In this document: in pieces, positions 1-14,020 of the stretch
Layout: the number at the start of each line of letters is the position of its first letter
Position numbering within the stretch: the stretch's first letter is position 1
Source of the DNA: an uncultured Dorea sp.
Lineage (GTDB): Bacteria; Bacillota; Clostridia; Lachnospirales; Lachnospiraceae
Reading direction: 5' to 3'
NCBI GenBank assembly: GCA_947647815.1
Contig: CANSLW010000009.1
Coordinates: 1 to 34,136 of the forward strand
DNA length: 34,136 nt
Position numbers and translations under genes: made by a program
Notes under the pieces: generated by a model
The model's input: the letters and a program-made list of their open reading frames with translations, nothing else
Told to the model about the DNA's origin: nothing
The model's database searches: none

Positions 1-1119
1 GATTCTATGTAATTCTTTTCGAGGATTCACTAAAAGATCATTAAATCTAATAGCCAGCTTATCATTCGTGACAAATCTGTACTGGGTAAACACAGGCAAG
101 TGCTCTGTGTACACAATATTTTTGTCTTTGTCATATACCACAGTACAGTTCGTCCCTATTGCTTTCTGAGTTCTATCATACTTATAATCGTCTGCAAAGT
201 AGTCCATCTCAATATCTTGAAACTGTGCATCTGTCAAGCTAACCTGCAGTCCTGAATTGAATAATGTTTCAATGGATTTTTTATCATTTTCTCTTTTTAT
301 ATAAGAATCCGAAGAGACCTTGGAATTATTTACTAAACTAACCGATACAAGATATCGGTCTTTTAATTTCTTAACAGCTACTTCAACATAAATATTCCAC
401 CTCTGATTTATTTTAGGACCATTTTTTGCATACGAATTAATGAAACTGATTAATTCTTCCTCACTGCTAAGATGGGAGATTTTTGTTTTTTCATTAACAA
501 CAAAACGATAGAAATCCTCCTCATTCTGGATATCTAACATAAGTTGGTCTAAGAACTCTTCCAATGCCTTATTGATTTCATGTTTTTCATCAACATATCC
601 ATAAAGTTTATCTTCCTGGAGTATGTCCTTTAGCTTAACATGAATAAAATAATGCTTTTCGGTAATAGACATCTTCTTATAAACCGGCACAAGCTTTATC
701 TCCGTATTTACAAACTTTCCAGGATTAGCTTTGTACGCACTGGCTAACTCATCATAGGATGCAAACTTTTCGTTTGTAGTCTCATATACACTTCTAATAA
801 CAGCCTGCCGCTGCTCATCAAGCGTGGGATAAGCCCTGTAAAAGAATTCTCCTTTAGGGCAAATTGTAAGAACCGCATTTTCTATGTCTTTCTCTGAGAT
901 GTAAAAATCCACACTGATGCTCTCAATAAAAGTCTTGGAAGAAAAAGCCTTATTCTTTCCTTCCTCATTATTTATAGACATAAGTTTTCCAACAAAAAAT
1001 GCTTCCTCAGGATTGATACCTACGACCCGTTCCTGATGCTCTCCTGTTATTTCACTCTTAAAATCACGTAATAACTGTTCCGTAAGAATTTCTCGAGCTA
1101 TCTCCTCTTTTAACCTCAT
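1..1119 (-). CDS. N-terminal part of a probable DrmA-like helicase (partial)
   Basis: The frame opens at ATG 1119 and stays open for 373 codons to the left edge, so the gene is cut off. It starts one base after the stop of the upstream beta-helix gene, as expected for the fourth gene of an operon. No helicase motif lies in the visible part. Its layout resembles what I remember of DISARM DrmA N-terminal regions: an opening helix, then a segment reading NPEEAFFVGKL, then ESISVDFYIS, then RYLVSVSLVNNS, a LFxxxLxV segment, and AIGTNCTVVYD followed by VYTEHLPVF. In DrmA the corresponding blocks are roughly a YLxGxLxP segment, SxGLSF, VSVFLVN, FQxxLxV and a GHGCxVxW block. The match is by pattern and order, not alignment. 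If correct, the missing part would hold DEAD-like and helicase C domains. It could instead be an unrelated large protein of the same system. Confidence 0.5.
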   Translation of the reverse strand, partial: MRLKEEIAREILTEQLLRDFKSEITGEHQERVVGINPEEAFFVGKLMSINNEEGKNKAFSSKTFIESISVDFYISEKDIENAVLTICPKGEFFYRAYPTLDEQRQAVIRSVYETTNEKFASYDELASAYKANPGKFVNTEIKLVPVYKKMSITEKHYFIHVKLKDILQEDKLYGYVDEKHEINKALEEFLDQLMLDIQNEEDFYRFVVNEKTKISHLSSEEELISFINSYAKNGPKINQRWNIYVEVAVKKLKDRYLVSVSLVNNSKVSSDSYIKRENDKKSIETLFNSGLQVSLTDAQFQDIEMDYFADDYKYDRTQKAIGTNCTVVYDKDKNIVYTEHLPVFTQYRFVTNDKLAIRFNDLLVNPRKELHRI

Positions 1120-1120
1120 A

Positions 1121-2146
1121 TTAACCTCTCTCAAACAGCTTCTGGACAAAGCTGTATCTTAAACCTATAGAAGAAAAAATCTTATCAGCAAATTCTTCTA
1201 ATTCATCTCTAAATATCGTCGTTACTATCTTTAATGAAAATGTAAACTGCAATAAATTTTCTGCAGAGTAATCAAGTTCAGTAAAGTCAACCTCTCTTAG
1301 CATATCCGTAAACACATGTTCAATCGTTTCATATGTCAAAAGTGATTCCGGGAATGTGCTTTCCGCATATTTAACAAGAATATAATCTCTTAAATTAGCA
1401 ATATCATCCATATACGATATTCTGCTTATTTCACCAAACAGGTAACATAACTCTTCAAAAGATACTCTTTGATTCTTTGCACATTTTGATAACTCCTCAA
1501 TAATTGTATCCTCATCTTTTTGAATAACAGTAATCCAAAAATCATCCAAAAGCTTTTTAAGCAGCTTATCAAAATTTCGACCATTCATATTGTCAGAATC
1601 TATTATATTTGAACTAACAGCTTCAAACATTGTCGCAATTTCATATACATTCGCTTCAACATTTCCATCTAAGTCAAAATAATCTCCAACAACAACGCCA
1701 TCGGCATGCAAAGATCCCGAACCTGAAATCCCTTCGCCTGCCATAATATTCCCATCAACAAAGCATTCATCAGCTACAACCAACGCATCTTCAACCATCA
1801 CTGAACCTTGTACTTGGACTGTATTCCCTGTAAGAAACTTTGTCAGCACATCCTCATCACACTGCATATCCCCCACCCAAGTTCTTCCAGTGCATACCAA
1901 TTTATGGCATCTCACTTTCTCTGCTTTCAAATTCCCATTAACGACAAGTTCACCATTCACTTCCACTGCTTCCGCTTCCAAGTCTCCAATGATAATTAGA
2001 TCATAATTGGCATAAATTTTTCCGGCACATAGTTTTGATCCTGTTACAACATACGTCTCGCTGAAAAACAGGTCATCTGATGTTTCGACCGCCTCTGTTA
2101 TATTTGTATCTCCAACTAAAATATCTGATGTTTCGTATTGAATCAA
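1121..2146 (-). CDS. Bactofilin-like (polymer-forming) beta-helix protein
   Basis: This 341-residue protein has no predicted signal peptide or membrane segment. Residues about 20-175 are short alternating hydrophobic strands with recurring Gly/Asn turns, such as IIIGDLEAEAVEVNGELVV, VNGNLKAEKVRC and VDGNIMAGEGISGSG. That periodicity is typical of right-handed beta-helices of the bactofilin/polymer-forming type. Residues about 190-341 are different: acidic, helical and without the repeat. Bactofilins self-assemble into filaments without nucleotide; whether this protein polymerises is inference. It lies 9 bases after the helicase stop and 1 base before the DrmA-like gene, so it is probably a structural or scaffold subunit of the same complex. 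Other beta-helix folds cannot be excluded. Confidence 0.55.
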   Translation of the reverse strand: MIQYETSDILVGDTNITEAVETSDDLFFSETYVVTGSKLCAGKIYANYDLIIIGDLEAEAVEVNGELVVNGNLKAEKVRCHKLVCTGRTWVGDMQCDEDVLTKFLTGNTVQVQGSVMVEDALVVADECFVDGNIMAGEGISGSGSLHADGVVVGDYFDLDGNVEANVYEIATMFEAVSSNIIDSDNMNGRNFDKLLKKLLDDFWITVIQKDEDTIIEELSKCAKNQRVSFEELCYLFGEISRISYMDDIANLRDYILVKYAESTFPESLLTYETIEHVFTDMLREVDFTELDYSAENLLQFTFSLKIVTTIFRDELEEFADKIFSSIGLRYSFVQKLFERG

Positions 2147-2155
2147 TTTTTTCTC

Positions 2156-4117
2156 CTATCCTTCCTCCATTGCGTCTAAAAGCATTTTTATATAAAGTGA
2201 CTCCTCCTTATCTTCCGGTTGAATGATATACAAGAGGTCTCTTGCTCTTGTACATGCAACATAGAGCATCCGAATATTGTTTTTAATACTTTCTATCGAA
2301 TCACCATGCTCGTCCAACAGTCGTATATCATTTTCATCTAGATATTTTGTCTTATCATAATCTCCAAATGGTTTTAAACCGCATACGATAACAGTTCTAA
2401 AATCTAGCCCTAATACCGATTCAAATGAAATCAATCCAACACCGTCATTTGCACCGTATCTAACTGCATTCGCATTTTGGCTGGTATACATCATGCTATG
2501 CGGAATATTTCCGGCATTCATCTCAATCAGCAAAAAACTCTCTAAGTTATAATAATTTTCCTGCCATCCTTTCATCCTTTTGGAATAGGTTTTATGATAT
2601 ATGACAACGGCTATTTCATCATAAGGAATTCTGTATTCATCATGGGCTTCGTGTATCGCCTCTATCACACTCTTTGCCTCTGCTCTCGAAGTGCGTGCTC
2701 CAATCCGTTTTACGAATGTACCGATTCCATTTCTAAAAGCTTTTCCCCTTAAAAACATATCCGGGTCCACAGCTCCGCTTCCAGGCAGTATTCCATAGAT
2801 CTTTTTTGCATAAGATACATAACTATTTATATAGCTATTAACTTCTATACAATTTCTATAATTTTTTTCTATTCTTATACTTTTATTCCCGCCTCGGTAA
2901 TTCGGATATCCCGCACCGGCATTCCACGGAGCAGTTCCTCTTTTCTGCCGCTTTATAATTTCTTGAGTCTTATCGCCACAAATTACGAATAAATGCTCGC
3001 CAGAGTCTTTGTTCTCCAACAAATTAAAACACAATTTATACCACTCTTGTTCAAAAAGCTGTACTTCATCTATAAAAATACCATAGTACTTTTCTTTAAT
3101 GTATCCCTGGTTAAACCTTGCAATCGTATCTTGCGGCCATAATTCAATATTTCCGTTAACATAGCTTCCGCTTTTTTCCATTAACTGCTTGCACAGTTTA
3201 TGAAATGTTACACATTCAACATTTCTTTCTCTTAATCCTGCTCTATCTATATACCATGCATATAAAGATTGTAATTGCTTGTTTCTACATGTAATCAAAA
3301 ACTTTTTATCAGGATTCATCTGTGCCGCCTTAAAACATTTTGAGATCAGAATAACACTTTTCCCACTGCCCGCACATGCCAGAATCAATTGATCTCCTTT
3401 TAGTATCTTATTCACAATATTAATCTGTTCCTGATCCAGCATAAACGCTCTCACAGCTACATCATCCGGCGTAACAATAAGCAGTTCATCATCCGCACCT
3501 CTATAAGCAGTTTCATCTTCTACTCTGCTTACTCTTATCGTTGTATACTCCGGTGCAATCCTCTGCATAATCGCATTCACAGAATTTCCGTCTATTATTT
3601 GTGGATAAATCGAACAATCCCTTTCCTTCTTCTCAAAATATGATTTCATCTTGCCCGAAAAATCTCTTTTCAAGTCCTGAATATCATTCTGAAACAAACA
3701 ACATGTCTCTACAAACTCCTTAAACTCACCTTGAAACGAATGACTGTTAATCTTCTCAAGATTCGGAAAAACACATATATACGAATATCCGATCGACAAT
3801 AACCCGTCTTTACCAATCAACGCTTTATTTGTACACAATTTCTTTCTAACGGCTGTATACGTCCCCGTGTATACTCCGTCATAATAAATCTTCATAACAG
3901 TTTCAAACATCGCAGGATCAGTAAAGGTGTCGAAAAACTTTACCAATAACACCCCCTTATCGAAAATAACGATATGTTGTTTTTCTCCTTCAATCATTGC
4001 GGCATTCGTATTTAGTAAAAGATAACCAAAATCCTCCGCCGACTCCGCATATCGTACAAATAATTTCTCTACTCTTGTCAATCCCTGCTTTTGATATTCA
4101 CTTGGTACTATCTCCAT
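2156..4117 (-). CDS. UvrD-like superfamily 1 helicase with degenerate NERD-like N terminus
   Basis: This 653-residue protein carries the SF1A motifs in order. Walker A is ACAGSGKS (Lys253), motif II is FIDEVQ (Asp350-Glu351), motif III is GDKTQ (381-385) and motif IV includes KNYR (about 418-421). A motif V-like GLISFESVLGLDF lies before motif VI, LYVACTRAR, near the C terminus. DEVQ replaces the usual DExQ of UvrD/Rep, as in GajB- or DUF2075-like helicases. The first roughly 110 residues contain LLLNTNAAMIEGEKQHIVIF and KGVLLVKFF, which recall a NERD nuclease fold, but the catalytic Glu/Gln-x-Lys is not evident. The start lies 2 bases after the GHKL ATPase stop, implying translational coupling. 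It probably unwinds or translocates on DNA in a defence or repair complex; the substrate is unknown. Confidence 0.75.
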   Translation of the reverse strand: MEIVPSEYQKQGLTRVEKLFVRYAESAEDFGYLLLNTNAAMIEGEKQHIVIFDKGVLLVKFFDTFTDPAMFETVMKIYYDGVYTGTYTAVRKKLCTNKALIGKDGLLSIGYSYICVFPNLEKINSHSFQGEFKEFVETCCLFQNDIQDLKRDFSGKMKSYFEKKERDCSIYPQIIDGNSVNAIMQRIAPEYTTIRVSRVEDETAYRGADDELLIVTPDDVAVRAFMLDQEQINIVNKILKGDQLILACAGSGKSVILISKCFKAAQMNPDKKFLITCRNKQLQSLYAWYIDRAGLRERNVECVTFHKLCKQLMEKSGSYVNGNIELWPQDTIARFNQGYIKEKYYGIFIDEVQLFEQEWYKLCFNLLENKDSGEHLFVICGDKTQEIIKRQKRGTAPWNAGAGYPNYRGGNKSIRIEKNYRNCIEVNSYINSYVSYAKKIYGILPGSGAVDPDMFLRGKAFRNGIGTFVKRIGARTSRAEAKSVIEAIHEAHDEYRIPYDEIAVVIYHKTYSKRMKGWQENYYNLESFLLIEMNAGNIPHSMMYTSQNANAVRYGANDGVGLISFESVLGLDFRTVIVCGLKPFGDYDKTKYLDENDIRLLDEHGDSIESIKNNIRMLYVACTRARDLLYIIQPEDKEESLYIKMLLDAMEEG

Positions 4118-4119
4118 AA

Positions 4120-5646
4120 TTATTTCTTCCCATTCAACGCTTCAACTATTTCTTCAATGATTTCATCTACAAGAAACTTAGACAATTTTGTCGATAAAAT
4201 ATCACTTATAATAGCCAAAATTCTTTTGTTTTTCCGCCCCACACTTGATCTGATTTTATTTATTTTATAATTCGAACTGGCAGATACCTGTTCCGTAGTA
4301 ACATGAATTCTTTCAATGAGTTCCTCTTTCTTTTCGACTAAATCGTCTCTTATCTTTGTACTTTCAAGTTTATCTGCACTCTGCCCCAGCTGTTCAATAA
4401 GTTTCTTTTTATCAACCGCTGAATTAAATCCCTCCTTCAAATCACACTCAGCCTCTGTGATTGTTCTCTCTACTTCTCTTATCATCTTAGCAGATACGTC
4501 ATTTCTCTTACCAGATGCTTCTCTTATCTGCCTGGAAATATCGCTGCCAATCCCTTCTCGAAGTTTTTCAATAAACTTAAAGTAAGCTTCATTTTGTTCA
4601 AAATCATCCCGTCGGGCATTCGGAATCAATTTATCTGTCACAACAAAAATTTCACCTTGAACCCATCCATTAAATCTGCTTTCTTTAAAAATTAGATTCA
4701 TGGTTCTTGAATCACCGATTAATATATTTCCTTTTCTTATGCGCATTCCGGAAATCATAGATTCTGAAATTGTGCCAAGCCATCCGCTTTCAGCATACCA
4801 TCCATAAGCAAAGCATTCTTCATCTACAATCACATCAAAATAATGAATTCTGTTTATCACATCTTCTTTTCGCTTATTTCTATCCGCATGGAATCTATGT
4901 CTGTTAGGTTTACAGACTGGCTCAAGTGATCTGTAGTCCGATCCTAAAAACAATGGAAATTCCTCAATTGTATATCCCTTCTCTTCCACATGTCTGTGTA
5001 CGACTGTACTGTAATAGAAATTTTTTTTACTATAGGGAACAGGCGCCACCTGACTTATGTACTCTCTAACTTTATCCACATTTAATAAATCTGAAAAATC
5101 AGACACTTCTTCTAACTCAACCAAGAAGTAATGTTGATTCTTTTTTTCGTTTTCCACTGATATTGTCGTTATTTCTTCCAGAACTGTATTCAACCGGTAT
5201 TGCTCATACTCTCCCGGAATGAGTAATTCACGCAATCTCTTGCAATCAAATTGAACAATTGTCTTTTTATCTTCCCCTGCTGCCGAAGTTACAAATCTTA
5301 AAACATTACAATAACTCATTCCTCCCAAGCGGCCTATTCCGCGAAATCCACGATTATTACTGCTTGTTTTGCTTGAATTACCTATATTTAATAATTTTGA
5401 AGGAGCTTTACCCACAGGGATACCCAACCCATTATCACGAACTGATATTATTGAATTTTCTGCATCTACTATAATGTCAACCCGCATTCCTTGTTCTTCT
5501 ATCACGCCCAATGCAACCGCTTCTTCTAACGAATCAACACTATTTTGTATATACTCTCTGTAAACAATCTTCGGTTCTGAATACATTCCCGTTGTCAAAG
5601 ACTCCAATGTATACTTGCCGATTTCTACGTTTATTGTCTCTTCCAT
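4120..5646 (-). CDS. GHKL-type (Hsp90/MORC/MutL-like) ATPase
   Basis: This 508-residue protein opens with a GHKL ATP-binding fold. The N box is REYIQNSVDS (Glu31, Asn35), the G1 box is DNGLGIP (Asp71, Gly73, Gly75) and the G2 glycine loop is RGFRGIGRLGG (100-109). The arrangement fits the Hsp90/MORC/MutL group rather than histidine kinases, since no His phosphoacceptor domain precedes it. The middle region (about 170-370) resembles a transducer domain. Residues about 375-470 are charged and helical, probably a coiled coil used for dimerisation. ATP-dependent dimerisation as a DNA or protein clamp is the family behaviour; a sensor or clamp role here is inference. The start is supported by GAGGAAG five bases upstream. 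This is the first gene of the left-edge operon. Confidence 0.7.
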   Translation of the reverse strand: MEETINVEIGKYTLESLTTGMYSEPKIVYREYIQNSVDSLEEAVALGVIEEQGMRVDIIVDAENSIISVRDNGLGIPVGKAPSKLLNIGNSSKTSSNNRGFRGIGRLGGMSYCNVLRFVTSAAGEDKKTIVQFDCKRLRELLIPGEYEQYRLNTVLEEITTISVENEKKNQHYFLVELEEVSDFSDLLNVDKVREYISQVAPVPYSKKNFYYSTVVHRHVEEKGYTIEEFPLFLGSDYRSLEPVCKPNRHRFHADRNKRKEDVINRIHYFDVIVDEECFAYGWYAESGWLGTISESMISGMRIRKGNILIGDSRTMNLIFKESRFNGWVQGEIFVVTDKLIPNARRDDFEQNEAYFKFIEKLREGIGSDISRQIREASGKRNDVSAKMIREVERTITEAECDLKEGFNSAVDKKKLIEQLGQSADKLESTKIRDDLVEKKEELIERIHVTTEQVSASSNYKINKIRSSVGRKNKRILAIISDILSTKLSKFLVDEIIEEIVEALNGKK

Positions 5647-5768
5647 GTTATCTTCCTCACTATGAAATTCCTCTTATGTATTTTCCAGGCTTTACTCTTT
5701 TGCTTTGAATCTTTTCTACATTTTCGTTAATAAATCAATATCTTCCCATTTTATAACACACTAAAATC

Positions 5769-5815
5769 TTAACCTCTCTATTGATTGCTCTAGTTCCTTG
5801 ACATCCAGAGGTTAA
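5769..5815 (-). promoter_or_regulatory. Inverted repeat at the operon promoter, candidate operator
   Basis: The arms TTAACCTCT (5769-5777) and AGAGGTTAA (5807-5815) are perfect 9-bp inverted copies separated by 29 bases. The left arm covers the -35 position of the putative minus-strand promoter (TATAAA at 5750-5755, 17-base spacer). A poor -35 overlapped by a repeat suggests regulated transcription of the four-gene operon. No regulator gene is next to it, so the binding protein is unknown. Confidence 0.35.
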
Positions 5816-6110
5816 CATTAAATTAATCCGAACATTTCAAAATCCACTTCTATATTCAATCTCTTACATTAATTTATACTATTTATAATTTTAAAGCATA
5901 GTACTCTTTATGTCTATTGTTTATGTCGATTTTTCTCTAATTTTATCTTCTACAATATTCCATTATTCAATTTTGTGAAATTACCTTTATAAGTTTCAGG
6001 AACTCATCTATCTTATGCACATTAAAGGAATCTCCATAGACAGGTTTCACCCTTGCAAGATTAATGGTCCTTTATCGGACACACAATTCGATGTTACCCA
6101 TAAGAAAATA

Positions 6111-6137
6111 GCAGTGAATCTATTTCTGACTCACTGC
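6111..6137 (-). terminator. Probable intrinsic terminator of phd-doc
   Basis: The arms GCAGTGA (6111-6117) and TCACTGC (6131-6137) form a 7-bp stem with a 13-base loop, starting 27 bases past the doc stop. On the minus strand the stem is followed by TATTTTCTTA, a T-rich but imperfect tract. Confidence 0.5.
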
Positions 6138-6164
6138 ATAAATATGACTATAATTTCTTATTTT

Positions 6165-6542
6165 TCATTTCTGATGCTCAAGAATCCATTTCAGAAGATC
6201 TTCAAATTCTATTTCACCTGCTGCAACGCCAATAATTTCTTCATAAAGTTCCTGCTGTGTATATTGAATCTCAATCCCATTTAAGGCAAGAAAAACCAAC
6301 ATTGCATGTGTTCCGATTCTTTTGTTTCCATCAATCATAGCATGATTTTTAATCAAACCATATCCCAGTCGAGCTGCCTTTGACTGTACCGTTGGGAATA
6401 GTTCCAGGTCTCCATAAGACTGAAAAGGTGCTTCTAATGCTGACTCAAGCAACCCTTCATCCCGTATTCCATCACTTCCTCCTGTTGTTTCAATCAATTG
6501 GGAATGAAGTAATATAATTTGTTTTTTTGTTAATTTAATCAT
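6165..6542 (-). CDS. doc: Doc-type (death-on-curing) Fic-fold toxin
   Basis: This 125-residue protein matches the Doc length (about 126). The Fic-fold active site reads NHAMIDGNKR, with His67, Asp71, Asn73, Lys74 and Arg75. Doc enzymes carry this degenerate Fic motif and phosphorylate EF-Tu, halting translation; that activity is assumed from the family. The residue two after the His is Met where Phe is usual. An N-terminal KKQIILLHSQLI helix and the DGIRDEGLLESALEAP segment are typical of the family. Its ATG overlaps the antitoxin stop by four bases (ATGA), the standard toxin-antitoxin arrangement. It lies just upstream of the left-edge operon's promoter region, as a separate unit. Confidence 0.85.
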   Translation of the reverse strand: MIKLTKKQIILLHSQLIETTGGSDGIRDEGLLESALEAPFQSYGDLELFPTVQSKAARLGYGLIKNHAMIDGNKRIGTHAMLVFLALNGIEIQYTQQELYEEIIGVAAGEIEFEDLLKWILEHQK

Positions 6543-6781
6543 TTTGCCAACGCTTTATATACTGCATGATTTTTTTCAATCAGACGCTTGGAAATTGTCA
6601 ATACATCGTCGTCTTGCGCATTTACATCTGCATCTGCCTGGCTAAAATCAATGACAAGATATCTGGGAACATTATTTTTCAAGATTATTGCAGTTCCAAG
6701 TTCATCCACAAGTCTTGCAACCTTAGAAAAATTCTGATTAGCTTCTGTAATAGAAACCATTGCATTTGTGTTAATCTTCAT
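6539..6781 (-). CDS. phd: Phd/YefM-type antitoxin
   Basis: The start is set at ATG 6781, giving 80 residues beginning MKINTNAMVSITEANQNF. GGAGG lies nine bases upstream, whereas the in-frame ATG nine bases earlier would leave no spacing. The N-terminal VSITEANQNFSKVARLVDE block is the Phd/YefM DNA-binding and dimerisation motif. The segment GTAIILKNNVPRYLVIDF is the usual strand-turn-strand, and the C-terminal acidic and helical tail (ADADVNAQDDD onward) should bind and neutralise Doc. Phd-Doc complexes normally repress their own promoter with conditional cooperativity. The four-base overlap with doc supports a functional pair. Confidence 0.85.
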   Translation of the reverse strand: MKINTNAMVSITEANQNFSKVARLVDELGTAIILKNNVPRYLVIDFSQADADVNAQDDDVLTISKRLIEKNHAVYKALAK

Positions 6782-6864
6782 AGCTATCATCCTCCATGCA
6801 TATACTGTTTCTATTATATCCAGCTTATAGGACGAATTCAACCTATTTTATTCAAATTTTCAGA

Positions 6865-7962
6865 CTAACCACATCTATACTTCCCCTTACACAACACAAT
6901 CTCCGGCCTGACCGGACATCCGCCCATACATGCCGTCCTCTTCTCGCATCCCGGACAAGCCGTCTTAAAATGTTCCCGAAAATCCTCGAATTCCCTACTA
7001 TTCCAAGCCTCTTCAATCGTATAATTCCTAAGGTCAACTGCCCATCGCATTTCCTGATTATCGAAGCTGCACGGCATCATCTTCATGTCCGCCGAGATAT
7101 ATGCCGACCATCGTGCGCCTTCGCACGTATCCAGACTATCCTCAGCTATCTTCCCCCTCTTATCACTCCTATTATCACTTCTAAGATTGACCAGCGCCGG
7201 CACCGTACACGAATCAAACCCAATCTTGTAAGCCGTCTGATCAGAAGCCGCCAGTTGAAGCAAACTCCAAAATTCCTCATGGTCATCCGTAATAACATTC
7301 TCACTTTTCCCAAGGCCAACCGGTTTATGCAAAAGAAATACAATAGCATTAATACCTTCCGGAAAATCGTGAGAACGTAACCGCTCCACTGCCTCATGCA
7401 CCGTAAATTTATTCAAAACATAATGAATATTCGTTTTTACCTCGGCTTTTGCCAAAATCTGAATCGCTCTTCTGCTATATTCACTGCGATACCAGCTTAC
7501 TGCTACTGCGCCGCAATATTTGCTGCAAAGGCGAGCCTCTTCTTCTGTGATTCCAAAACCTGAAGTCGTAAAATTCGGCACAATTCCCTCTTGCCTGCAG
7601 ATTTCAAGAATCTCCTGAAAATGCTCATGCTGATCCGGGTCGCCGCATCCGCCAAGTGCAAACTGGTATGTCTGCTGCCTGCACTGACGCACTATATTTT
7701 CAAAATCCCGAAGATGCATATTCGGTTTGCTCTGATGCAAGCCGTCCTGATAGCACTCAATCCCCGCCTTGATACAAAGACCACTCTGCCCGTGGCTGCA
7801 ATGTCCCATAATACCAATATCCAGTAATTCCGGGAAGGATGCCATAAACGGATCAACACCGGTATCTATCCCGTTTTTTATGATACCTGTCCGGAGATAT
7901 CTCCCTGTTTCCGGGTCAAAAAGGGAGATAAAATCCTTTTCTTTTCGTGTCTTCATCTTCAT
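6865..7962 (-). CDS. Radical SAM protein with SPASM-like C terminus and unusual cysteine spacing
   Basis: This 365-residue protein has a radical SAM-like N-terminal half and a cysteine-rich C terminus. The expected CX3CX2C is replaced by Cys55-X7-Cys63-X6-Cys70, ending ECYQDG. The CYQDG tail matches radical SAM enzymes that have the normal CxxGCxxCYQ motif, so this looks like a motif with inserted residues rather than a different fold. LGGCGDP further on fits the SAM-binding GGE-like strand. The C terminus has TCEGA, MMPCSFD and CPGCEKRTACMGGCPVRP, as in SPASM auxiliary-cluster domains of peptide-modifying enzymes. It follows the MKIRSDFVTNSSSSSF gene by eight bases and is surely co-transcribed. 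A role in modifying that protein is a hypothesis. ATG 7962 has a weak AGGG site. Confidence 0.7.
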   Translation of the reverse strand: MKMKTRKEKDFISLFDPETGRYLRTGIIKNGIDTGVDPFMASFPELLDIGIMGHCSHGQSGLCIKAGIECYQDGLHQSKPNMHLRDFENIVRQCRQQTYQFALGGCGDPDQHEHFQEILEICRQEGIVPNFTTSGFGITEEEARLCSKYCGAVAVSWYRSEYSRRAIQILAKAEVKTNIHYVLNKFTVHEAVERLRSHDFPEGINAIVFLLHKPVGLGKSENVITDDHEEFWSLLQLAASDQTAYKIGFDSCTVPALVNLRSDNRSDKRGKIAEDSLDTCEGARWSAYISADMKMMPCSFDNQEMRWAVDLRNYTIEEAWNSREFEDFREHFKTACPGCEKRTACMGGCPVRPEIVLCKGKYRCG

Positions 7963-13979: not shown

Positions 13980-14020
13980 TTCGAGCGAAATATCAATTTA
14001 TTTTTGATTTTTCGCTCGAA
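13980..14020. repeat. Long inverted repeat upstream of the AAA-ATPase gene
   Basis: TTCGAGCGAAA (13980-13990) and TTTCGCTCGAA (14010-14020) are perfect 11-bp arms; pairing continues inward for about five more pairs after one mismatch. It lies 54 bases upstream of ATG 13926 and 91 bases past the SEC-C gene stop. The tract after the stem on the minus strand is AATATTG, not T-rich, so it may be an operator for the HTH-bearing protein rather than a terminator. Confidence 0.5.

Follow-up and report, generated by a model that had tools for sequence, protein, structure and literature searches.

An eight-gene, DISARM-related array with a radical SAM–GHKL pair: a candidate defence system in an uncultured Dorea species

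To which system do four closely packed genes at the tip of a contig from an uncultured Dorea species belong? The stretch of DNA analysed here, which we call the window, comprises positions 1 to 34,136 of contig CANSLW010000009.1 (C9:1-34136) and is part of a 3.09-Mb draft genome (assembly GCA_947647815.1, 271 contigs, 78% complete). A first-pass annotation of its sequence had proposed that genes for a GHKL ATPase, a UvrD-like helicase, a bactofilin-like protein and a DrmA-like protein make up a four-gene candidate defence system. Our analysis demonstrates that the array is real, conserved, rare and mobile, but that the unit consists of eight genes, adding DrmB, a NERD-helicase, a radical SAM protein and a second GHKL ATPase (GHKL2). 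With a probability of about 60%, we regard it as a horizontally moving, DISARM-related defence array that would act on foreign DNA; the antiviral role and all steps of the mechanism described below we infer from sequence comparisons.

The four front genes are all located on the minus strand with intergenic gaps of 2, 9 and 1 bases, which confirms their coordinates. Gene 1 (GHKL1, 4120..5646, 508 aa) encodes an Hsp90/MutL-type ATPase with Hsp90/TopoVI-B-like similarity and a match to Pfam HATPase_c_3 above the cut-off (2.1e-9). For all catalytic motifs, patterns were picked from alignments and then scored in the copies of the array; the ATP-site motifs of GHKL1 (E31..N35, D71xGxG75 and RGFRGIGRL) were found in 7/7 copies. 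Gene 2 (2156..4117, 653 aa) codes for a UvrD-like superfamily 1 (SF1) helicase, which matches PF00580 above the cut-off (9.5e-10) as well as PF13361, with Walker A in 7/7 copies and Walker A, Walker B and motif VI together in the 6/6 complete ones. Both the GHKL and the SF1/UvrD assignment are therefore supported. The fold of the N-terminal region of the gene 2 protein (~1-225) was not recognised. A match of this protein to the PADLOC model C3a187 (NERD+UvrD, 2.2e-21), listed together with GajB among 25 of its 36 PADLOC matches, prompted the idea of a dead NERD domain at this N-terminus, which hhalign did not bear out, aligning the proteins only around the helicase cores.

Gene 3 (1121..2146, 341 aa, TTG start) encodes an acidic bactofilin/FapA-like protein (pI of each half 4.1-4.6 in the 5/5 copies measured), whose N-terminal half probably forms a beta-solenoid. 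The likeness to bactofilins is upheld, but not the family membership: the match to PF04519 (1.7e-4) reaches 22.2 bits with a cut-off of 27.9, a FapA match in Pfam is also sub-threshold, and the PDB bactofilin 2n3d is matched only at E 0.97. The protein is therefore best described as bactofilin-like. Gene 4 (1..1119) runs off the window and comprises the N-terminal third of DrmA, with 373 aa from the ATG or 383 aa from an upstream TTG. This fragment alone did not match any curated family above the family's own cut-off. Its orthologue in one of the other copies (L005, from genome G014) is a full-length DrmA relative (PADLOC 2.6e-161), which supports the DrmA-like designation.

Extending the locus leftward, as the first-pass annotation had advised, uncovered the remainder of gene 4 and four more genes on another contig of the host genome (C3). 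Using the complete DrmA of L005 as query, residues 4-370 align to C9:16-1110 and residues 380-1149 to C3:50-2344, and gene 4 matches complete DrmA orthologues at 44-46% (tblastn). The C-terminal part of DrmA (C3:~56-2350) is followed by genes for DrmB (gene 5, C3:2334-4226), a NERD nuclease/SF1 helicase (gene 6, C3:4208-5845), the radical SAM protein (gene 7, C3:5866-7893) and GHKL2 (gene 8, C3:7890-9350), with genes 5 to 8 on the same strand. The complete order of the array is GHKL1 – UvrD-like helicase – acidic bactofilin-like protein – DrmA – DrmB – NERD nuclease/SF1 helicase – radical SAM protein – GHKL2. Since the two drmA halves nearly abut and the relatives have the same gene order, we conclude that C3 continues C9. 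The tips of both contigs (window 1-55 and L011:1-55) share exactly 55 identical bases in the same orientation; when the gene is read through, they run forward on C9 but in reverse on C3, an arrangement unexpected for a simple join. We interpret the overlap as an assembly-graph tip or a chimera, and alternatively it could reflect a small inversion in part of the population. The GC content is 0.34-0.38 in the array (2-kb steps, C9:1-6000 and C3:1-10000) vs 0.43-0.49 from base 14,000 on in both contigs, with intermediate values in between.

A pattern-based scan of a genome collection with GHKL1 yielded five loci with 59-61% identity, which together with extensions, one IMG/VR contig and the own locus add up to seven loci. 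Order and strand are kept wherever two neighbouring genes share a contig. In line with the first-pass annotation, the genes stay together across genomes as far as the contigs reach, and the agreement of six other loci with our own indicates that the operon is not a product of chance. All eight genes are located on one contig in 3/7 loci (G013, G014 and the viral contig IMGVR_UViG_2619619281_000003). In three further loci the array is split into two contig pieces, namely in our own genome, in G015 (genes 1-2 and genes 3-5, the last incomplete) and in G016 (genes 1-2, the second incomplete, and genes 5-8, the first incomplete), and G012 has genes 1-6 before a contig end cuts gene 7 after 227 residues. 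The front four genes alone share order, strand and contig in 4/6 other loci (G012, G013, G014 and the viral contig); in G015 they are divided between two contigs, with genes 1-2 on one and 3-4 on the other, and G016 shows genes 1-2 before the contig end.

The degree of conservation differs between the members. Compared with the other copies, our own proteins are 43-61% (GHKL1, six copies), 35-52% (helicase 2), 53-68% (C-terminal part of DrmA), 39-59% (DrmB), 40-51% (NERD-helicase), 53-89% (radical SAM protein, the highest value coming from the 227-residue fragment of G012) and 41-55% (GHKL2) identical. Gene 3 is the fastest-evolving member with 27-33% identity to five others, vs 35-68% for the three helicases. 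Besides those of genes 1 and 2, the catalytic motifs of later members are preserved as well: the ATP-site motifs of GHKL2, the DrmA motifs GGGKT, DELH and QAYSRxGR and the radical SAM motif CxxxCxxC are each found in 5/5 copies, and the NERD active-site residues and Walker motifs of gene 6 in 6/6 (motif VI in 5/6, the stretch being cut in G012). The radical SAM gene of the viral contig contains no stop when read to its true end. As the G012 fragment is 88.5% identical to our own radical SAM protein, an exchange of this module between lineages was suspected, which was ruled out: over these 227 residues, identity is 95% between G012 and G014 and 87.7% between our own protein and G014, pointing to a conserved N-terminus.

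At the same time, the array is rare. Gene 3 was detected in 1/12 genomes of the genus (our own), which is a weak test due to the fast evolution of this gene and the use of one query sequence. Within the order, a radical SAM profile matched 34/392 genomes including our own, and full length was reached in our own only (1,361 bits, next 405). Within the class, a GHKL1 profile found 9/391 genomes at E 1e-20 or better, again including our own, and the eight others have no match of at least 45 bits to DrmA, DrmB or gene 3 in stretches of 13-20 kb. The N-terminal DrmA profile matched 4/398 genomes of the phylum, among them our own and three with partial matches of about 1e-14. A phage collection contained no DrmA match and partial radical SAM matches in eight records, and pattern-based scans of IMG/VR with five profiles retrieved one contig with the whole array.

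Several copies are located next to known defence systems and phage genes. On the viral contig, LmuA, LmuC and LmuB (PADLOC 7.4e-90, 6.1e-55 and 1.7e-213) end 255 bases ahead of GHKL1. Two genes ahead of the array in G012 carry the ABC-3C domains CTD11 and DUF2326, and homologues of both (29% and 42%) precede the array in G013; no ABC-3C pair was found among the open reading frames (ORFs) listed ahead of the array in G014. Thus, Lamassu or ABC-3C genes stand ahead of the array in three loci, as neighbouring systems and not as members. A PHROGs scan of ten flank proteins, covering the G012, G013 and viral copies (L003, L004/L022 and L029), assigned named phage functions to 7/10, families of unknown function only to 2/10 and no match to 1/10. 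The named functions include a primase, a helicase, a Sak4-like and a Gam-like protein (L003), a polymerase (L022, the one gene of G013) as well as a polymerase and a helicase (L029), so that three array copies, one of them in the IMG/VR contig, lie beside phage-type replication genes. We consider that this Lamassu, ABC-3C and prophage context makes an antiviral role considerably more likely.

The relation to DISARM is evident from the core pair. DrmA matches its PADLOC model at 1.2e-155 on our own C-terminal part, the G014 protein matches the PDB DrmA 7s9v at 9.1e-49, and DrmB matches its PADLOC model at 5.6e-62. DrmB is a separate gene adjoining drmA in five loci with an open frame (own, G012, G013, G015 and viral); it also adjoins drmA in G014 with a split frame, and the contigs of G016 do not cover this junction. 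The PADLOC check recommended in the first-pass annotation returned no good model for genes 1, 3, 7 and 8, but those for DrmA and DrmB match genes 4 and 5. The NCBIfam equivalog cut-off for DrmA (950 bits) is reached neither by four array copies (356-365 bits) nor by a Halomicrobium DISARM control (382 bits), and that for DrmB neither by three array copies nor by the control. As the DISARM control fails too, we did not use these cut-offs to judge DISARM membership. Among 15 DrmA-like proteins placed in a tree, the five rows from the array form one clade (100/100), which is placed weakly (81/83) beside DrmAs of haloarchaeal class 2 DISARM in the presence of several long branches; the label class 2 is our own and refers to the DrmE gene in front.

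The closest match in a plasmid collection is the Halomicrobium DrmA (31% over 99% of the query), encoded in a locus with the order DrmE–DrmA–DUF1998–PLD. In common with class 2 DISARM (DrmE–DrmA–DrmB–DrmC with DrmMII), the array has the DrmA-type superfamily 2 (SF2) helicase with a separate DrmB directly behind. Unlike DISARM, it has six other genes including two GHKL ATPases, a NERD-helicase and a radical SAM protein, and it lacks a match to DrmC or DrmE and a conserved methyltransferase. For the PLD-type nuclease DrmC, a profile search replaced an HKD pattern scan, which had found 2/3 positive controls. The model was built from the PLD genes of eight of ten DrmA-bearing plasmid regions compared; it recovered 8/8 DrmCs in a leave-one-out test and found no match at E up to 10 in 12 stretches with the array. 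A DrmE model did not match these stretches either, with a limited sensitivity (3/5 known DrmEs recovered when left out). DrmD is absent among the PADLOC matches listed for the eight genes (25 of 36 for gene 2), and neither DrmMI nor DrmMII is among the conserved genes. A class I methyltransferase gene lies 22 bases behind GHKL2 in our own genome and a DNA-methyltransferase-like ORF, recognised by eye, behind GHKL2 in G016; a methyltransferase is not conserved at this place in G013 or G014. Two of the plasmid regions, from Roseomonas and Priestia, also have no annotated PLD gene in the stretch (the Priestia region being cut by the record start), so the lack of DrmC is not unique to the array. 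In both, a DrmA-like gene is followed by one of DrmB size, annotated as hypothetical in Roseomonas and as DUF1998 in Priestia (L067:9392-14139 and L097:7047-12485), and these regions possibly represent further DISARM-like classes. Taken together, DrmA and DrmB are clear relatives of the DISARM proteins, but without a DrmC match and a conserved methyltransferase the array appears DISARM-related and not DISARM.

The last two genes of the array also occur outside of it. A radical SAM gene adjoins the GHKL gene in 8/8 other class genomes with a GHKL of this family and in 5/5 further viral loci retrieved with the GHKL1 profile. In nine loci, seven of them from class genomes and two viral, the pair follows genes for proteins of ~385 aa and ~557 aa (L082:6513-12818; also L031, L032, L079-L081 and L083-L085). 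The L082 proteins are 44-72% (557 aa) and 30-58% (385 aa) identical to those of the eight others. We call the ~557-aa ATPase HerA-like only tentatively, because the L082 protein matches HerA and mad8 only weakly and Pfam not at all. The GHKL gene comes before the radical SAM gene, which adjoins it directly in 8/9 of these loci; in L079 a further gene lies between them and a second GHKL gene follows. Three of the four L082 proteins had no PADLOC match at E 0.05, and this arrangement may itself be a candidate defence system. Another combination is found in L027, where the pair is accompanied by two ParB-like proteins and an SNF2 helicase; all three have homologues in L033 and L035. The order is ParB-like, SNF2 helicase, ParB-like, radical SAM and GHKL, with an extra gene ahead of the radical SAM gene in L035 (L027:6001-13473, L033:1408-8783 and L035:3223-11494). 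In L027, the ParB_N match narrowly misses the Pfam cut-off, and the second ParB-like protein is named by shared PADLOC matches; by eye, the L027 array sits behind apparent phage lysis genes. An annotated DGQHR protein directly precedes the pair on the three alphaproteobacterial plasmids examined out of 14 plasmid records matched, the GHKL protein being annotated as ATP-binding (L061:12982-17122, L062:12968-17191 and L063:12935-17212); L061 and L062 also have a PIN-like gene and another ATP-binding protein nearby. Other neighbours accompany the pair in L034, at a contig tip, and in L086.

A GHKL tree groups the GHKL1 proteins in one clade (99/97) and GHKL2 with the L027 protein and L079b (95/90, inner order unresolved). 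DGQHR and ParB-like proteins are characteristic of DNA modification by phosphorothioate and 7-deazaguanine systems, and these neighbours are a hint that DNA could be the substrate of the radical SAM enzyme. We put forward, as a tentative and rather unlikely idea, that the pair does the modifying in a restriction-modification system of a new class, placing a non-methyl mark on self DNA with the Hsp90-like ATPase driving or chaperoning the reaction, and that it has been combined with at least three attack machines: DrmAB with the NERD nuclease, the tentatively HerA-like ATPase with its ~385-aa partner, and an SNF2 helicase with ParB-like proteins or a DGQHR protein. The radical SAM profile matched no PDB chain at E 0.1, and the enzyme may instead have another role, such as the synthesis of a nucleotide analogue as in viperin or the modification of RNA or protein.

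For the array as a whole, we propose that DrmA and DrmB are sensor and motor and would load onto phage or plasmid DNA, either as it enters or as it replicates, at single strands or ends that are exposed. This is suggested by analogy, because DrmAB of DISARM, in the available text of the source, binds single strands and 5' overhangs (Bravo et al., PMC9142583). The DNA would then be passed to the gene 6 protein, a predicted NERD (PD-(D/E)xK) nuclease whose active-site residues are conserved and which is joined to an SF1 helicase; this protein may act as the cutter in place of DrmC, assisted in unwinding by the gene 2 helicase. By analogy to MutL, MORC and Hsp90 ATPases, GHKL1 could form an ATP-driven clamp or gate on the DrmAB/NERD machine, for which the acidic gene 3 protein might be a scaffold or an inhibitor. 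The radical SAM protein and GHKL2 would be a separable module at the place of the DISARM methyltransferase and most likely mark self DNA or otherwise set the trigger.

This model has to be weighed against other explanations. The radical SAM–GHKL pair, occurring without DrmAB in other loci, might be a separate system able to work alone that merely travels with a six-gene DrmAB-NERD restriction array; we think this unlikely, since 6/6 array contigs that reach past gene 6 (own, G012, G013, G014, G016 and viral) carry the radical SAM gene next, and GHKL1 and GHKL2 group together with L027 and L079b in the tree, if weakly (84/83). A strict DISARM variant is in our view quite improbable; here, DrmAB would work as it does in DISARM, other parts of the genome would provide DrmC and the methyltransferase, and the remaining six genes would have accessory roles. 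Such a variant would fit the DrmAB homology, the weak sister placement to the haloarchaeal DrmAs and the PLD-domain proteins on other contigs of our own genome, and the available text on DISARM describes DrmAB as the core and DrmC as apparently non-essential (PMC9142583). Against it, the position of the six other genes is as strict as that of DrmAB across the seven loci, the DrmC model with its 8/8 recovery matched nothing, and no methyltransferase is conserved in the array.

The phage-type replication genes beside three copies raise the further question of whom the array serves. It could act for the mobile element itself, either in competition between phages or plasmids or as a DNA-processing module of prophages. 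Nothing decisive speaks against this, and defence carried on a prophage serves both parties, so that it overlaps with the proposed antiviral function; as an explanation of its own it seems quite doubtful. A DNA repair or housekeeping operon is very improbable. Helicases of the UvrD, NERD and YprA types are also found in repair. For the YprA type, this is described in the available text of PMC12458937. However, such an operon would hardly agree with the lack of gene 3 in 11/11 other genomes of the genus, weak as this test is, with the lack of any other full-length match in the 392 order genomes (radical SAM profile) and 398 phylum genomes (N-terminal DrmA profile), or with the low-GC stretch and the mobile context.

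Some observations count against the preferred reading of an eight-gene defence array acting on foreign DNA. The array is rare, and its spread is based on seven loci, all of which are draft genomes, metagenome-assembled genomes (MAGs) or viral contigs. The copies labelled Spirochaetales and Planctomycetales are 66-95% identical to the Lachnospiraceae copy in ten protein comparisons, seven of them at 75-90%, and because of this closeness the labels may be binning errors. The whole G016 assembly yielded no DrmA, and G012 and G015 no GHKL2, which may be explained by missing contigs of the MAGs. DrmB of G014 (L005:18038-19913) is split into two overlapping frames, either by a real break or by a sequencing error. 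In our own genome, no single contig spans the two halves, whose link is homology plus a 55-base overlap in an unusual orientation. Finally, an action of the radical SAM enzyme on DNA is deduced only from its ParB-like and DGQHR neighbours.

The flanks of the array in our own genome are not part of the conserved unit. A terminator-like hairpin with a 10-pair stem and a T-rich tail lies on the minus strand between the toxin gene and gene 1 (6111..6137) and suggests that the array starts its own transcript. The region 5500-7000 contains 2 terminator-like sites vs 0.6 (standard deviation (sd) 0.7) in shuffled sequences, and its 8 promoter-like sites are no commoner than in shuffles (6.6, sd 2.2). 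The toxin-antitoxin pair next to it, which the first-pass annotation had pointed out, is real: a Phd-like antitoxin and a Doc/Fic toxin are encoded on the minus strand at 6165..6841, with TIGR01550 (Doc/Fic, 3.1e-19) above and PF02604 (Phd-like, 3.5e-4) below the cut-off. Yet the pair is a neighbour outside the conserved array, because neither protein had a tblastn match of at least 35 bits ahead of GHKL1 in the six other copies (stretches of 2.5 to 10 kb). Beyond the pair, the window encodes a SPASM-type radical SAM protein (6865-7962), whose family matches are unlike those of the radical SAM protein of the array. Directly behind GHKL2 of the host genome, the class I methyltransferase is joined by an HNH_4 (Cas9-type HNH) protein (L011:9373-11108); both were without a tblastn match in the stretches of the other copies. 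Further on C3, a nucleotidyltransferase-like ORF and RtcB were recognised by eye.

Besides DISARM, the array shares features with other multi-gene systems. According to the available text of PMC12458937, ARMADA, BRIGADE and TALON are likewise multi-gene systems built around a YprA-family helicase, often on mobile islands, and TALON has a NERD nuclease like the array. The terms GHKL, Hsp90 and bactofilin were not found in the main text of this source. ARMADA differs in its BrxHII-like and PglX-like partners (PMC12458937) and in a YprA helicase with OB-CON-DUF1998 in the same chain, whereas DrmB of the array is a separate gene. None of these three hallmarks of ARMADA was seen in the array: BrxHII and PglX are missing among the matches listed for the eight genes (for gene 2, 25 of 36), apart from a weak BrxH match inside DrmA (4.5e-3). 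TPR-CSD and TBP of TALON were not among the listed matches, and no search was aimed at them. The helicases of genes 2 and 6 match GajB models of Gabija, and GajA is absent among the listed matches (again 25 of 36 for gene 2), which sets the array apart from Gabija. Like the array, the MORC/paraMORC restriction systems combine a GHKL ATPase, an SF2 helicase and a restriction-fold nuclease in one operon, with Rad25-like, SWI2/SNF2 or a third type of SF2 partners in the available text (Iyer 2008, PMC2292703), the main text of which does not contain the terms radical SAM, HerA or YprA. A GHKL ATPase controlling a defence nuclease is a hypothesis put forward for VcSduA in the accessible part of PMC12137116.

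The first-pass annotation knew of no described system with this combination. In the literature searched, with subscription papers and supplements largely outside, we likewise found no description of the gene set or of the radical SAM–GHKL module, including the accessible parts of PMC12458937, PMC10853773, PMC4158269, PMC12137116, PMC7824862, PMC2292703, PMC7159879 and PMC9142583; what has to be amended is that DrmA and DrmB make the array DISARM-related. Uncharacterised DISARM-like classes are mentioned in the available text of PMC12458937 and may include this array. What is new is the gene combination, together with the radical SAM–GHKL module common to unlike arrays. DrmAB-type helicases are at the heart of several defence systems with poorly understood effectors and self-recognition. 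Since the array keeps DrmAB together with a different nuclease, two Hsp90-like ATPases, a bactofilin-like protein and a radical SAM enzyme, it offers a natural test of which parts of DISARM are exchangeable. Moreover, at least three unlike arrays have the radical SAM–GHKL pair in common; this finding points to an enzymatic component of immunity in prokaryotes and makes the question of the radical SAM enzyme's substrate directly testable.

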